The notes beneath the pieces are model-generated. The model did not search any database. It was not told the origin of the DNA and saw nothing but the letters and a program-made list of their open reading frames with translations. Shown piece by piece: positions 49,308-57,149 of a stretch of 64,000 bases of DNA. Both the position numbers and the translations under genes were made by a program. The stretch is taken from assembly GCF_014638005.1 (NCBI RefSeq), contig NZ_BMFG01000003.1, forward strand, positions 124,001 to 188,000. Direction: 5' to 3'. Origin of the DNA: Flavobacterium orientale (lineage in GTDB: Bacteria > Bacteroidota > Bacteroidia > Flavobacteriales > Flavobacteriaceae). Positions within the stretch are counted from its first letter, which is position 1; each line of letters opens with the position of its first letter.

Positions 49308-51275
49308 TTATCCATTTATTTTTAATTTCATTCCCGGTTTTATAACCGATCCACCGCTAATACCGTTCCACTTTTTTAAATCTGCTACAGTTACTCCAGG
49401 AATTTTTTGAGAAATACTAAATAATGAATCCCCTTTTTTAACAATATAAACGTTTTCGTTTTTGTAACTATTTGTTTTTGAAGCTTTTTTAGGGGCTGCT
49501 TTTATTTCTGTAACGCTATTTTCTACTTCTTCAGATTGAATAATTTTTAACTCTAATCCTGCAATCACATTTGCATCCTCTAAATCATTCCATTTAATCA
49601 AATCATCTGTAGAAATGTTATGTGCTTTTGCAATGGAATGAAGACTTTCTCCAGCTTTAACAATATGTAAATTTAAATTGTCTTCATCAGTAATTACTTC
49701 ATTAGCTACAATTAATTTTGAGCCCAATGCAATGTTCGAATCTTTTAAATTATTCCATTTTTTTAATTCCTCAATACTACTATTATATTTTTTAGAAAGT
49801 TGACTAAGTGTTTCGCCTTTTTCAACTTGGTGTATCTTTTTTACTGTTGAATCCTTAGAAACAACAACTGTGTTTTTTTCAACCTCTATAGATTTCACTG
49901 TTGTTGGCTCGTTAACTTTTTTAACCGGACTGGAAGCAATTCTTTCGTTAGATATGATTTTCAATTTTTTACCCAAACCAATATTGTTAGATTTAAGGTT
50001 ATTCCATTGCTTAACATTTGTTAGCGTTACTCCGTATTTTTTTGAAATTCCACCCAATGTTTCGCCTCTTTTTACAGTATGGTATTTTGTTCTTGAAACA
50101 ACTTCAAAGTTTCCATTGGCTGCAGCTAAAGCTTCTTGACTTGAGAATGGCTTTTCACGTTTTGAAAAATCATGCTCTGTGTAAGCATAAATTTTTTCTT
50201 CATTTGAAGTAAAAACAGCTACTTTATCAATTGGTAAACGCAAATAATGATCTTTTCCTGAGATAAATGGAACATAATCTCTTTTGTAAGAAGGGTTTAA
50301 AAACTGTAATTGCTCAACAGAAATATCTAATAAATCAGAAATCTGTTTAAACGACATTTTGTTTTTAATCTTGATTGTATCCGTTGAAAACGTATTTAAT
50401 ATCGGCTTGTTTGGTACAATTCCATGTTCTTTATGGTATTCATAAACATACATTGTTGCTAAAAAAGCCGGAACATATCCCTGAGTTTCTTTTGGTAAAA
50501 ATGGTCTAATATTCCAATAATTTTGTTTCCCGCCTGAACGTCTAATTGCTTTTGTTACATTTCCGGGACCTGCATTATAAGATGCTAAAACTAAATCCCA
50601 ATCGCCAAAAATAGCATACATGTTTACCATGTATTGACAAGCTGCTTCGGTTGCTTTTAAAACATCACTTCTTTCATCAACAAACGTATTGATTTCTAAA
50701 TTGTATTGTTTTCCGGTTCCATACATAAATTGCCATAATCCGGTAGCTCCCATTTTTGAAACTGCTCTTGGATTTAAAGCGGACTCCACAATTGCCAAAT
50801 ATTTTATTTCAAGTGGCACATTATATTTTGCCAACGAAGCTTCAAAAATTGGAAAATAATATTGCGAAAGTCCCATCAAACGTTCGTATGATTTTTTTCT
50901 GTTTTTCAGATAATGCTTGATTATGTTTTCTAATCCAGGATTGTATTCTATGTTAAAAGCTGATTTTGCATCTAATTCTTTTAAACGTTCTTTCAATAAA
51001 TCTGTAGAAAGTTCATAATCTACTTTTACTTCTAAATCGATGTTTTCAATATCGTTAGTAATTTCTTTATAAAGTTCAAGCGAAGCAATTTCAGAAACAA
51101 ATCGTTCGTCAACACAAGCAGCAATTTCGTGATGAACAAATGATTTTTTGATAGAATCTAAAAAAGAAATTTTGGGTAGTTCTACAAGCTGATTTGCTGT
51201 TGCCAAAGAGTCTTGAGCAAAAAGCTGTCCTGACAAAAGGAGTAAAAAAACTAATGTGGTATTTTGTAACTTCAT
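49308..51275 (-). CDS. membrane-bound lytic transglycosylase, MltD-like, with four LysM domains
   Basis: Cleaves peptidoglycan between MurNAc and GlcNAc. The 655 residues comprise a signal peptide (1-20), an SLT domain with the catalytic Glu in LAIVESALNPRAVS and the helix MGATGLWQFMYGTG, and a repeat of four LysM domains in the C-terminal half, each recognisable by HTVKRGETL-, HQVEKGETL-, HIVKAGESL- and YIVKKGDSL-type starts. It has its own promoter and is followed by DUF4837. Confidence 0.95.
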   Translation of the reverse strand: MKLQNTTLVFLLLLSGQLFAQDSLATANQLVELPKISFLDSIKKSFVHHEIAACVDERFVSEIASLELYKEITNDIENIDLEVKVDYELSTDLLKERLKELDAKSAFNIEYNPGLENIIKHYLKNRKKSYERLMGLSQYYFPIFEASLAKYNVPLEIKYLAIVESALNPRAVSKMGATGLWQFMYGTGKQYNLEINTFVDERSDVLKATEAACQYMVNMYAIFGDWDLVLASYNAGPGNVTKAIRRSGGKQNYWNIRPFLPKETQGYVPAFLATMYVYEYHKEHGIVPNKPILNTFSTDTIKIKNKMSFKQISDLLDISVEQLQFLNPSYKRDYVPFISGKDHYLRLPIDKVAVFTSNEEKIYAYTEHDFSKREKPFSSQEALAAANGNFEVVSRTKYHTVKRGETLGGISKKYGVTLTNVKQWNNLKSNNIGLGKKLKIISNERIASSPVKKVNEPTTVKSIEVEKNTVVVSKDSTVKKIHQVEKGETLSQLSKKYNSSIEELKKWNNLKDSNIALGSKLIVANEVITDEDNLNLHIVKAGESLHSIAKAHNISTDDLIKWNDLEDANVIAGLELKIIQSEEVENSVTEIKAAPKKASKTNSYKNENVYIVKKGDSLFSISQKIPGVTVADLKKWNGISGGSVIKPGMKLKING

Positions 51276-51375: not shown

Positions 51376-52563
51376 TTATTCTAAAATTGCGGCAATTCCG
51401 GGCAAAGTTTGTCCTTCTAACATTTCTAACATAGCTCCACCGCCGGTTGAAACATAACTCATTTTTTCTTCTAATCCGAATTGTTTTACAGCTGAAACCG
51501 AATCGCCACCTCCAACAAGAGAAAAAGCTCCGTTTTTGGTTGATTCTGCAATATAATTTCCTAATGTAATTGTGCCGTTTGCAAACGATTCCATTTCAAA
51601 AACACCCAAAGGTCCGTTCCAAAGTATCGTTTTTGAATTCATGATAACTTCTTTGAAATTTTCTAACGATTTTGGTCCGGCATCCAAACCTTGCCAACCA
51701 TCAGGAATTTGGCGAACATCCACAATTTGTGTGTTGGCATCGTTTGAAAAAGCATCTGCCGCAACAACATCAACCGGAATGTGAATATGAACATTTTTTT
51801 CGTTAGCTAATTTCAAAATATCAAGTGCTAATTGTAATTTATCATCTTCACAAATGGAGTTTCCAACACTTCCGCCAAGGGCTTTGATAAAAGTGAAAGT
51901 CATTCCACCACCAATTATCATGTGGTCAACTTTATCTAATATATTTTCAATTACTGTAATTTTTGACGAAACTTTTGAACCACCCAAAACAGCCGTTACG
52001 GGTTTCACGCTATTGTTTAAAACTCTATTTAAACTTTCAATTTCTTTGGCTAATAACAACCCAAAACATTTTGAATTAGGAAAATACTTAGCGACAATTG
52101 TAGTTGAAGCATGAGCTCGATGTGCGGTTCCAAAAGCATCATTAACATAAATATCACCTAAAGCGGCTAATTTTTTTGAAAAAGCTTCATCGCCAGCTTC
52201 TTCTTCTGAGTAAAAACGAAGGTTTTCTAACAATAAAACTTCTCCCGGTTTTAAACTTGCAGCTCTTTTTTCAACTTTATCTCCAATACAATCGGAAATA
52301 AATTCAACATTAACACCCAAAATTTCAGATGCTTTATCTACGATATGACGTAAAGAATATTTACCTTCAACACCTTTTGGTCTTCCAAGATGTGACATTA
52401 AAATAACACTTCCGCCATCGGCCAAAATTTTATCAATAGTTGGTTTAGCCGCTTCAATTCTGTTTGTATCTGTTACATTGTAGTTTTCATCAAGAGGAAC
52501 ATTAAAATCTACACGAATTAAGGCTCTTTTATTGGCAAAATTAAAGTCGTTTATGGTTTTCAT
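51376..52563 (-). CDS. pgk: phosphoglycerate kinase
   Basis: Glycolytic enzyme: 1,3-bisphosphoglycerate + ADP to 3-phosphoglycerate + ATP. The 395 residues show the start [15 protein letters not shown], the substrate-binding SHLGRPKG and [11 protein letters not shown], the hinge [10 protein letters not shown], and the ADP-binding [11 protein letters not shown] with [11 protein letters not shown] near the C-terminus. It has a predicted promoter of its own. Confidence 0.98.
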
Positions 52564-52648: not shown

Positions 52649-54220
52649 TTACTCGTTTTTTATGGTCATAATCCACATGTCGCCAAAATAAGTATTGTTT
52701 AAATCCGAATTATAATGCTCTTTTGCTTCATTCCAATTAGAAAAACTACTCACATAAACGTAGCGGTAGTTGTTTTTTGGATTAATGAAATAATTAGCTT
52801 CAATTCCCATCTTTTTTAATTTTTGAATAAAATTTACAGCATTTGAATGAACTCTAAAAACATTTGCAATCAAGTAAAAACCGTCTTTCGCATTTGGAAT
52901 AGTCACTTTATCAGATTGCTTTGGTTCAACTCTTTTAGATTTAGCCTCTGTTGAAGAACTCTTTTTTATTTGATTTGTTGTTACTTCTGTTAGTTTTAAC
53001 TCTTTACTTTTTTCTACAGTACTTTCTCTTATTGGTTCAGCTAGTTCCACTTTGCTTTCAACAATAGTTTCTTGTTCTACTGGTTTTGAAGGATCGATTC
53101 CTTCAACACTTAAGGCACAAAAAAACATAAAATACCTGTCGCCTGTAGATTTTAATCGTACTGAAACTTCATTGGTATTATTAGCAATTACTGAATTATC
53201 ATTGTTTTTAATAGGAATTAAAAAGGCATCATAACCAAGAGTATTACTGCTATTAGGATTTCTTTTATTAAAATTGGCTTGATTAATTGTTATGGAGCTA
53301 TTGAAAAAATTGTTTTTGTCTCGCAATGGTTCTTCGATTGGAACTTCATTTTGACTTGACTTAGTTTTTATAAAAAGTTCGTCGCCTTTTAAGTTTTGAT
53401 CTCCTTCTAAAGCGGATCCTAAAATTTTTGCTTTAACTTCCCCTTCTGGTAACGTTTCAAAACCAACAAAATCGATAACTGTAGATTTGTTTGTAACTCC
53501 GGCAAAACCATCATAGGAAGTAATTTGTTTACCGGAAAGATTTTTGTCTTCATAAACAATTACTAACGTCCAACCGCCTGAAACGCCACCACTTAATGTT
53601 CCTAAAGTTGCTTTAATATTGGCAATTGTATAAGTTCCGTTTGGATTTTTTAATTGTGCTACTTTATCTGTTACATCAGCATAAACAGCATAGGGTGCGT
53701 TTTCTGAAAATCCTTCTTTTTCATGTCCGTCATAAAGAATTTCACCAGAAATTTCTTGGTAGTTTTTTTCGCCTGGTAATTTGATTTTTATAACATCAAT
53801 ATTGAATCTCTTTTTATTGGAAGCTACAAATTTTTTGTTTTTCTTTTGTTTGCCTTTTTCGTATTTATAGGTAGCTGACCAATATAACCCGGCATATTTT
53901 ATCTTTTTGGAAGTTACATTTTCCAAATTCAAATCAGCACTACTTGATGAAAATGTTGTTGGATCGTCGTCAATATCAATATAATCCATGAACCATTCGT
54001 CATTTAACTTTGCAGATCTGTCGGTTATATTGTATGGAATGTTAGCACTAGAATTGCCTTCTTTTCTATTTACAATTTGATTAGCAATCAAGGTGATATC
54101 TCCGTTTACATAGTTTTGATATCGAATTTCAAACGGTTTGGCTAATTGAGCAAACCCATGCAAGCTTATAAAAACTAGACTAATTTGAAAGAATGAGTTT
54201 AAAAGTGGTATTTTCCTCAT
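52649..54220 (-). CDS. exported protein with C-terminal SPOR domain (tandem paralogue 2)
   Basis: A 523-residue exported protein (signal peptide about 1-25, ending GFAQ). Residues about 30-375 are a conserved region with DIDDDPTTFSSSSADLNL, YAGLYWSATYKYEKG, GTLSGGVSGGWTLVIVYED and ALEGDQNLKGDEL. I recall similar sequence at the N-terminus of large flavobacterial surface proteins. A Lys/Glu/Ser-rich linker (about 390-440) joins it to a SPOR domain (about 443-520, FYLIANVFRVHSNAVNF). SPOR domains bind denuded peptidoglycan at division sites in other bacteria. It is 16 nt downstream of a close paralogue on the same strand. Function unknown. Confidence 0.8.
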   Translation of the reverse strand: MRKIPLLNSFFQISLVFISLHGFAQLAKPFEIRYQNYVNGDITLIANQIVNRKEGNSSANIPYNITDRSAKLNDEWFMDYIDIDDDPTTFSSSSADLNLENVTSKKIKYAGLYWSATYKYEKGKQKKNKKFVASNKKRFNIDVIKIKLPGEKNYQEISGEILYDGHEKEGFSENAPYAVYADVTDKVAQLKNPNGTYTIANIKATLGTLSGGVSGGWTLVIVYEDKNLSGKQITSYDGFAGVTNKSTVIDFVGFETLPEGEVKAKILGSALEGDQNLKGDELFIKTKSSQNEVPIEEPLRDKNNFFNSSITINQANFNKRNPNSSNTLGYDAFLIPIKNNDNSVIANNTNEVSVRLKSTGDRYFMFFCALSVEGIDPSKPVEQETIVESKVELAEPIRESTVEKSKELKLTEVTTNQIKKSSSTEAKSKRVEPKQSDKVTIPNAKDGFYLIANVFRVHSNAVNFIQKLKKMGIEANYFINPKNNYRYVYVSSFSNWNEAKEHYNSDLNNTYFGDMWIMTIKNE

Positions 54221-54236
54221 TTGTTATTAAAAAGTT

Positions 54237-55841
54237 TTACTGATTAACATTAACGGCTAAAAGCCAAATTTCATCTTTATATTTTTTTTGCATTTTACTG
54301 TCAAGTTGTTTTTGGGCTTCCTCTTGATCGTCATAATAACCCAAATATACATAAATATATTTGTTCTCAGGATTGGTGAAAAATTTTGCTCCAATTCCTT
54401 TTTGTTCCAATTCTTTTAAAAACATTCTAGCGTTTGAAGGAACGGCAAAAACATTGGCTATGAGATAATATCCTTTTTTTAATCCCGGGTGATTTAAGTG
54501 TCGCAATTTTTCTGTTTCAATTTCATTTTGAGAAATAATTTCGGTCAAATCATCAACTTCTGTTAAATTAGAATCTTCATTTATAGTAATGTTGTTTTCT
54601 GTTCTTTTAGAATCAACCTCTGAAATTTCAAATTTTTGATCTGTATTTAAAACAAATGATTTGTCAATCTGATCCGGTGTTCCAACAGAAAGTGCTGTTA
54701 AAAAGAAAAAAAGTCGATCTCTTGAAGATTTTACTCTCAAATAAACTTCGTTTGTGCTGTTGTTTACAAAGTAATTGTCTTTGTTAGAGATTGAGGTCAA
54801 AAAAGTATCATAGCCCAAAGTGTTTCTTGAATTTGGAATTCTGTAGACATATTCTTCTTCATTGATTGTAATGCTACTATTAAAAATATTGCTGTTGAAC
54901 CGTGTTTTTGTTCTGAGGTTTGATAATCGTGGTTTTGTATTGGAACTTAAAAACAACATGTCCCCATGTGTTTTTTGATCGCCTTCTAAAGCGGCGGCTA
55001 AAAATTTTAATTTAATTTTTCCTTCAGAAATTGAGTCAAATTTAAAAGTGGTAATATCTTCAGATTCTTCATTAATTCCCGAAAAACCATCGTGAATAGT
55101 GATAAAATTCTCGTGGATTGATTGGTCTTCATAAACAAAAACCATGGTCCAACCGGCAGAAGAACCTCCACTCAAAGTGCCTTGAGTTGCTCTAATGTTT
55201 GCAACAGTATAAAACCCAAACGGATTAGAAGACGATTGAACAAAATGAGTAACATCGGCAAAAACCACATAAGGAGCTTGGTCTCTGTAGGGTTTGTTTT
55301 TGAGTCCGTCATAAATAACTTGACCTTTAACCGGAATGTAATTTGAAGTTTCGGGTAATTTTAATAAAACTTCGTCAAAAGAAAACCGGTCATTGTCATA
55401 AGCATAAAATTTTTCTTTGATTTTATAACCGCTTTCATATTTGTAAGTTGCCGACCAATATAAACCGGCAAATATTATTTTTTTTGATTCTTCTTGTTTT
55501 AAAAACAATGCCGCACTACTTGAAGAGAATGTATTAGGATCGTTGTCAATATCAATATATTCCATATCAAAATCATCATTTGAAGTATTTTCAAACGTGA
55601 TATCGTTATAGGGTTCGTTTGTTGAATTTCTTTTGTCAATTCTATTCAAAATATTGTTTGCAATAAAAGTCATGTCACCTTTTATTTTAACTTCAAATCG
55701 GGGTTTAAATGGCACTTGAACTTGAGCTAAAAGCGAAGTTGAAAGTAGTAATAAAAAAAAGTAATTGAAATTATGAACCAATTTAATAGTGTAGCTTTTA
55801 GGCTTCAAAAAAGAAGGAGGAGTTTGTTTTATTGAACTCAT
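54237..55841 (-). CDS. exported protein with C-terminal SPOR domain (tandem paralogue 1)
   Basis: A 534-residue paralogue of the downstream gene, with the same architecture: YIDIDNDPNTFSSSSAALFL, FAGLYWSATYKYESG, GTLSGGSSAGWTMVFVYED, ALEGDQKTHGDML, an acidic linker, then a SPOR domain (GYYLIANVFAVPSNARMFL) ending in WLLAVNVNQ. The first 24 residues before the hydrophobic signal segment (FNYFFLLLLSTSLLAQ) are longer than usual, so the start may be imprecise, but no alternative ATG is available. Promoter and tandem arrangement indicate one operon. The conserved GLYWSATY core and PG-binding tail suggest an envelope scaffold role. Confidence 0.8.
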   Translation of the reverse strand: MSSIKQTPPSFLKPKSYTIKLVHNFNYFFLLLLSTSLLAQVQVPFKPRFEVKIKGDMTFIANNILNRIDKRNSTNEPYNDITFENTSNDDFDMEYIDIDNDPNTFSSSSAALFLKQEESKKIIFAGLYWSATYKYESGYKIKEKFYAYDNDRFSFDEVLLKLPETSNYIPVKGQVIYDGLKNKPYRDQAPYVVFADVTHFVQSSSNPFGFYTVANIRATQGTLSGGSSAGWTMVFVYEDQSIHENFITIHDGFSGINEESEDITTFKFDSISEGKIKLKFLAAALEGDQKTHGDMLFLSSNTKPRLSNLRTKTRFNSNIFNSSITINEEEYVYRIPNSRNTLGYDTFLTSISNKDNYFVNNSTNEVYLRVKSSRDRLFFFLTALSVGTPDQIDKSFVLNTDQKFEISEVDSKRTENNITINEDSNLTEVDDLTEIISQNEIETEKLRHLNHPGLKKGYYLIANVFAVPSNARMFLKELEQKGIGAKFFTNPENKYIYVYLGYYDDQEEAQKQLDSKMQKKYKDEIWLLAVNVNQ

Positions 55842-56000: not shown

Positions 56001-57149
56001 ATGAAGTTTTCAGAAATTGTAGGTCAAGAAGCCGTCAAACATCATTTGATTCGGAATATCGAATTAAACCGAATTCCGCATGCTCAACTTTTTATTGGTC
56101 CTGAAGGTTGCGGAACATTACCCACAGCTATTGCTTATGCTCAATATTTATTATGCAAAAATTGTAATAATGAAAATTCTGGTGGAAACGACGCATGCAA
56201 TGCTAAATTTGAACATTTCGCACATCCTGATTTGCACTTCATTTATCCGACAGTAACGACAGAAGGTGTAAAATCAAAACCAAAAAGTATTGATTTTATT
56301 CAAGATTGGCGAGAATTTTTAAACACATCTATTTATGGTGGTTTGTTTGATTGGTACAAACAATTAGGTACAGAAAACAAACAAGGCGAAATTAGAGTTG
56401 ATGATTCACAGGAAATTTTAAGAACACTATCTTTAAAATCCTATGAAGGTGGCTATAAAGTAATGATTATTTGGATGGCAGAAGAAATGAATATTGCCGC
56501 TTCCAATAAAATTCTGAAAATTTTAGAAGAACCTTCTGAAACCACTTTGTTTATTCTTATTGCCGAAAAAGAAGAAGCTATAATTCAAACTATTAGATCT
56601 CGTTGTCAAATACTCCATTTTCATAAATTATCAGAACAATCTATTGCAGAAGCTTTAGTATCAAAACATGCTGTTGAAGAAAATTTAGCTTTAAAAATTG
56701 CTCATCAAGCTCAAGGGAATTTTAATAAAGCCCTCAAACTGATTCATGAAGAAAGTGACGATGTTGAATTTGAAAAATGGTTTGTTTTGTGGGTAAGAGC
56801 CGCATTCAGGGCTAAAGGCAACGCAGCGGCTATTCATGATTTGATTGATTGGAGCGAAGCTGTTGCAAAATTAGGTCGTGAAACTCAAAAAAAATTCCTG
56901 TCGTTTTGTATAGAAATGTTCAGACAAGCGTTATTAATAAATTATCAAACACCTAGTTTGGTGTATCTTGAACCAAAAATTGATAAATTTAAACTCGAAA
57001 ATTTTGCTCCATTTGTGAATGGAAATAATATAAACGAAATTTATAACGAACTTTCCAATGCGATTTATCTCATTGAAAGAAATGGAAATCCGAAAATAAT
57101 TTTGACGGATTTATCTATAAAACTAACCCGATATTTACATAAAAAATAA
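56001..57149 (+). CDS. holB: DNA polymerase III subunit delta'
   Basis: A clamp-loader subunit of 382 residues. The beginning VGQEAVKHHLIRNIELNRIP and the RFC-box-like HAQLFIGPEGCGTLPTA are typical; the P-loop lacks the Lys needed to bind ATP, as in delta' elsewhere. Cys residues at LLCKNC and DACNAKF could form the zinc site. The sensor ILEEPSETTLFILIAE and SRCQILHF blocks follow. It has a very close -7 element and is followed after 5 nt by a DoxX gene. Confidence 0.92.
   Translation: MKFSEIVGQEAVKHHLIRNIELNRIPHAQLFIGPEGCGTLPTAIAYAQYLLCKNCNNENSGGNDACNAKFEHFAHPDLHFIYPTVTTEGVKSKPKSIDFIQDWREFLNTSIYGGLFDWYKQLGTENKQGEIRVDDSQEILRTLSLKSYEGGYKVMIIWMAEEMNIAASNKILKILEEPSETTLFILIAEKEEAIIQTIRSRCQILHFHKLSEQSIAEALVSKHAVEENLALKIAHQAQGNFNKALKLIHEESDDVEFEKWFVLWVRAAFRAKGNAAAIHDLIDWSEAVAKLGRETQKKFLSFCIEMFRQALLINYQTPSLVYLEPKIDKFKLENFAPFVNGNNINEIYNELSNAIYLIERNGNPKIILTDLSIKLTRYLHKK

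Follow-up and report, generated by a model that had tools for sequence, protein, structure and literature searches.

Two adjacent genes of Flavobacterium orientale encode predicted exported proteins in which the N-terminal domain of a SprB-type gliding adhesin (here called the head) is joined to a C-terminal SPOR-type domain, a combination suggesting a so far undescribed helper in gliding or in the cell envelope. By sequence comparison, the head-SPOR combination is an old, undescribed family of Flavobacteriaceae. We tentatively read the pair as members of an undescribed family whose proteins act in the periplasm as accessories to the SprB gliding-adhesin pathway, and place this reading somewhat short of an even chance; the features that suggest it are the SprB head, a SPOR domain like that of the SprD of the same genome, the absence of a sorting domain and of a barrel, the head tree and the gene neighbourhood. 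A small exported protein with a SprB head would offer a handle of ~530 residues on that head, one that can be expressed, solved and deleted. No description of head-SPOR proteins, of a role for the SprB N-terminal head or of a SPOR domain in SprD was found in the open-access literature searched, in agreement with the preliminary description of the pair, which knew of no described function.

A tandem pair of head-SPOR genes

The window (the whole stretch of 64,000 nt that was analysed) contains the two genes on the minus strand, 16 nt apart. The first encodes P0001 (54237..55841, 534 aa; ORF, homology and Pfam SPOR match) and the second its paralogue P0002 (52649..54220, 523 aa), 43% identical over 521 aligned columns (E = 2e-131). 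The tandem pair is confirmed as real, and its adjacency, the domain order common to both proteins and the presence in both of GLYWSATY, GTLSGG and ALEGDQ, all proposed in the preliminary description, are borne out; export of both proteins is likewise supported, the signal peptides being judged by eye. In P0001 the signal peptide region (residues 1-39, 55725..55841; a later TTG start is possible) is followed by a head (residues 41-391, 54669..55721), a poorly conserved acidic linker (54492..54677) and a SPOR-type domain (54246..54491). P0002 repeats this order with a signal peptide region (residues 1-24, 54149..54220), a head (53084..54148, placed by alignment), a neutral linker with a K/S-rich C-terminal half (52901..53098) and a SPOR-type domain (52655..52903), all on the minus strand. 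The head measures ~350 residues, and Q40 of P0001 is invariant in 44/44 rows of the head alignment.

The pair is flanked by a holB-like gene (56001..57149, plus strand; named by eye) and a pgk-like gene (51376..52563, minus strand; named by eye), after which comes a gene for a LysM protein (49308-51275). The tandem arrangement is found again (75% and 74% identity), between the same holB- and pgk-like flanks, in L006, a second Flavobacterium MAG. Another tandem pair of the family (L125:5965-9963, genome G076) is located elsewhere, in the vicinity of acpP- and fabF-like genes, indicating that tandem copies arose more than once.

The head is shared with SprB-type adhesins

The main gliding adhesin of F. 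johnsoniae is SprB, and sprCDBF is said to be the subject of a paper by Rhodes from 2011. Residues 17-388 of P0001 match the first ~390 residues of a 4465-aa protein of the same genome (C3:205733-219130) at 43% identity (E = 1.9e-84), in line with the resemblance to large flavobacterial surface proteins that had been suspected earlier. This protein has 19 SprB-repeat stretches and a CHU_C domain (Pfam) as well as a type B sorting domain (NCBIfam). Upstream of its gene are those of a 1244-aa CHU_C protein and a 631-aa PorP/SprF barrel with a C-terminal SPOR domain, and downstream is that of a PorP/SprF protein ending in a CPC twin-cysteine motif, the type of end described for SprF in excerpts of PMC12635249. 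The gene order of the cluster is that given for sprC-sprD-sprB-sprF in excerpts of PMC9723704. This match identifies the head as the domain with which SprB-type gliding adhesins begin at their N-terminus. P0001 and P0002 share it with SprB, but they are ~530 aa long against 4465, and neither protein has SprB repeats, CHU_C, a type B sorting domain or either of the type IX sorting domains TIGR04131 and TIGR04183 at E≤10 in Pfam and NCBIfam.

No known family was found for the head in Pfam, NCBIfam, PHROGs or PDB sequences, and no relative was found in viral contigs. DUF3344 (PF11824) of fibrillar adhesins, whose strand pattern resembles that of the head by eye, was rejected as its family: it has no Pfam match in P0001 or P0002, matches 1/44 family members (E = 0.052) and gave no match in 30 Bacteroidota genomes at 1e-6. 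The same genome also encodes a 601-aa protein (L009:3526-5331) with a divergent head, a CARDB domain and a type B sorting domain, which matches DUF3344 weakly (24.5 bits, cut-off 27.2). Two head cysteines, near residues 169 and 272, were counted by hand in 42 members: both are present in 23, the first alone in 15 and neither in 4, so that 38/42 keep at least one; the P0001 and P0002 heads have neither.

AlphaFold2 models made from an input of four sequences were poor for whole P0001 (pLDDT 49.5) and for the P0002 head (pLDDT 53, pTM 0.64). The modelled head is almost entirely beta, and a fold search with it returned double jelly rolls and a protease P-domain (3hjr, Z 6.7). According to excerpts of PMC9210967, the top DALI match for the DUF3344 cluster of fibrillar adhesins is likewise 3HJR. 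Such matches, weak as they are, would suit a pair built from recycled modules: a general beta-sandwich head binding glycan or protein, fused long ago to SPOR, whose ligand would have no connection to SprB; the proteins might, for instance, link the outer membrane to the wall within the periplasm. We consider this rather unlikely. The best Z, 8.2, is at background level on a model of pLDDT 53, no family is named for the head from the fold matches, and the genomic slot that the family shares with the spr operon (below) would have to be a coincidence.

The SPOR domain resembles that of SprD from the same genome

The preliminary description assigned SPOR to both proteins. P0001 scores above the gathering threshold of PF05036 (32.9 bits, threshold 21); P0002 falls below it at 15.8 bits, and its SPOR-type domain is placed by alignment with that of P0001, to which it is 39% identical. 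Pfam SPOR matches 27/44 family members at E≤1, and a few members (L068, L079, L080, L081, L082, L084) have two SPOR-type domains in tandem. The P0002 SPOR domain has a dN of 0.09 and a dS of 0.97. A profile of the SPOR alignment (A4) searched against the PDB returned chance matches to repeat proteins alone.

We scored 12 SprD-type proteins with a profile HMM built solely from family SPOR domains. Five of them, in sprC-sprD-sprB clusters (L007, L069, L074, L076, L096), scored 75-141 bits, two of these scores coming from two SPOR copies, with 86 bits for the best single copy. Two others (L126, L130) scored 55 bits, and the remaining five (L095, L097, L127, L128, L132), which are F. johnsoniae-like, 23-28 bits. 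Among the controls, 12 HU-type SPOR proteins scored 20-29 bits and a 129-aa SPOR protein 3.5. The SPOR domains of F. johnsoniae-like SprDs thus score no better than the unrelated HU-type ones, and the scores indicate kinship with the SprD type of the same genome but not with the F. johnsoniae type, in which the domain has diverged. One published F. johnsoniae sprD primer (in excerpts of PMC9870892) matches the final 33 bp of the L097 gene with 1 substitution, which supports the identification of that gene as sprD; 2/4 published sprD primers were matched at ≤4 substitutions, in 2/8 loci searched.

Several SprD-type PorP/SprF barrels (L007:3830-5725, L069, L074, L096, L126) end in one or two SPOR-type domains. 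Of six SprD-type proteins scanned, all have the PorP_SprF barrel and three have Pfam SPOR above the cut-off, whereas the barrel is absent from P0001 and P0002 in Pfam. SPOR ends on several SprD-type proteins would let an outer-membrane part of the gliding machinery reach the wall or another periplasmic partner. A CxC motif (residues 431 and 433) lies between the barrel and SPOR of the SprD-type protein of the same genome (L007:3830-5725); this motif occurs in 1/10 SprD-type proteins, that of this genome only, and we therefore do not propose a disulfide link of the SprF kind.

Like RlpA, CwlC, FtsN and DamX, the family has a flexible linker followed by a C-terminal SPOR domain; we know of no adhesin-type head in these four proteins. 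In other bacteria SPOR domains recognise denuded septal glycan (excerpts of PMC6895207), and the pair could accordingly act in the cell wall or in division without any part in gliding, with SPOR directing the proteins to the septum and the head tying the outer membrane or periplasmic glycan to the wall during constriction. We regard this as possible but doubtful. Excerpts of the same source describe Q270 of the RlpA SPOR domain as critical and give it, with an arginine patch, as a contact to denuded glycan. Among 28 chosen family and SprD-type SPOR domains, aligned in a register set by eye with the aid of an alignment of HU-type SPOR to 1x60 (E = 0.015), the position of Q270 is Q in 0/28, I in 16 and V in 12, and the R-x-R strand reads Y-x-Y (28 and 21 of 28). 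These replacements, which set the family apart from the known SPOR proteins, make canonical denuded-glycan binding doubtful, and both the head and the SPOR subtype lead to spr-type proteins.

Distribution and age of the family

With P0001 as query we found matches in 207/299 Flavobacteriaceae genomes (E 1e-5), many of them in frames of 1000-7000 aa. A profile of 44 members drawn from the same sample, with carriers defined as rows above 470 bits, gave 25 carriers among 199 genomes, and SPOR-bearing full-length frames were found in at least 24/199. In G023 the SPOR domain has a row of its own, within the same frame.

A tree of 84 heads places 53 heads of short SPOR-type proteins on one side of a branch and 31 adhesin heads on the other (SH-aLRT 99; quick method, no bootstrap, midpoint root; 0/500 shuffles as low). 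This branch fits a single origin of the head-SPOR family. The nearest adhesin heads (the SprB of the same genome, G322 and seven others) join the family at an unresolved fork (support 85). With three candidates per genome scored in a sample of 395 genomes of the phylum, full-length members were found in the genome under study and in G660 only, and large head proteins in four genomes of other families. Within the genus, a member was found in 7/121 genomes (one-protein query, E≤1e-60).

This patchy occurrence in the genus, together with a short copy without SPOR in G168, is what decaying, functionless duplicates of pieces of sprB and sprD might leave behind. We hold decay to be very improbable: members occur in many genera and on one side of a branch, the frames of the 24 genomes are full-length, one of them with an in-frame TAA (G048), and the heads of the window are 81-83% identical to those of L006 whereas the linkers, the fastest-changing part, are 37% identical.

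The family gene shares a genomic slot with the spr operon

The sprC-sprD-sprB-sprF cluster of the same genome lies ~20 kb from the pair, measured to sprC. In a survey of 36 sources with 42 members, the window included and gene names assigned by eye, holB- and pgk-like genes were near the family gene in 16/36 sources and a LysM protein in 15, while about 9 of the 36 had trpS-dprA surroundings with HU-SPOR and EnvC-like genes. Such conserved sites speak in favour of a role in the cell wall or division.

The holB slot also connects the family to the spr genes. In 5/7 carriers of the genus the family gene lies between holB and pgk, 0.16-0.29 kb from holB. A 430-aa gene that precedes sprC, and that we take from its position to be a candidate remF or remG, lies 0.8-1.4 kb from holB in 40/121 genomes of the genus; the whole holB-to-pgk operon was viewed in G350 and its first part in G347, the other 38 being counted by the 430-aa gene only. 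None of the five carriers with the family gene in the holB slot also has the 430-aa gene beside holB. In the two other carriers (G345 and G367) the family gene is 1.5 kb from the 430-aa gene, which is followed by sprC-sprD-sprB in G345 and by the contig end in G367. G660 has the layout of the genome under study, with a family gene in the holB-pgk slot and sprC-sprD-sprB by glnS ~20 kb away, and a second family copy on another contig. In both of these genomes and in G288, sprC adjoins a glnS-like gene instead of holB.

A possible role in the SprB pathway

Several results speak against a simple link to gliding, among them the low scores of the F. johnsoniae-like SprDs. Genome by genome, positive co-occurrence with SprD-like proteins was rejected. 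SprD-like SPOR frames, identified from their length and neighbourhood and not by the barrel, occur in at least 13/25 carriers and at least 24/39 non-carriers (Fisher p = 0.60), and high-scoring ones are rarer in carriers (2/25 vs 12/39, p = 0.036). Other large head proteins are present in 20/25 carriers. Five carriers show none (G195, G124, G048, G076 and, with a weak partial match, G027; completeness is 82% for G048 and 94% for G124), which favours wall or division factors over a helper of SprB. GldJ is above the cut-off in 190/199 genomes and so cannot discriminate. Since no member was found in 114/121 genomes of the genus, gliding as such does not require the family, which would be at most an accessory of it.

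As accessories of the SprB pathway, the head-SPOR proteins would be exported by Sec to the periplasm, where the SPOR module may hold them at an envelope site also used by SprD. There the head could bind that of SprB, or some partner of the latter, before the adhesin has left the cell, and the proteins might dock, space or check adhesins ahead of type IX export. Taken by itself, the docking step is unlikely. We give slightly less credence still to a more specific version, in which the SprB head would be a self-recognition module in the envelope: head-SPOR proteins would keep the nascent adhesin head in the periplasm before passing it to the type IX translocon or the moving track, and the adhesin N-terminus would be more than a tip, acting as a handle for loading. 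PorP-PorE, as presented in excerpts of PMC12618676, is similar in that a type B adhesin system is tied to the wall by a separate periplasmic-side protein. It differs in that PorE is a peptidoglycan-binding outer-membrane protein, whereas the present family, known from sequence, has a SPOR domain and a SprB head. The same excerpts speculate that other type B systems are anchored to the wall through PorE, and tying an adhesin system to the wall is therefore not in itself a new idea.

Upstream region and linkers

The upstream region of the pair contains no match to the sigma-54 consensus, which counts against the link to the SprB pathway; the F. psychrophilum operon has such a site according to excerpts of PMC9723704. 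The pattern occurs 14 times in the window against 13.6 expected, and its sole match close to the pair falls within the second gene, on the opposite strand. A scan for sigma-70-type promoters gave matches at chance level.

The linkers had been described as oppositely charged, basic in one protein and acidic in the other. The acidic linker stands (P0001, net -10, pI 4.2), while that of P0002 is neutral and not basic (net 0, pI 6.5). The idea that the two form a complementary charged pair was rejected: the net charge of 55 family linkers runs without rule from -17 to +13, with 26 negative and 22 positive, and 20 of the 25 carrier genomes have a single family copy. The L006 pair keeps the difference between an acidic and a neutral linker, with net charges of -6 and +1.
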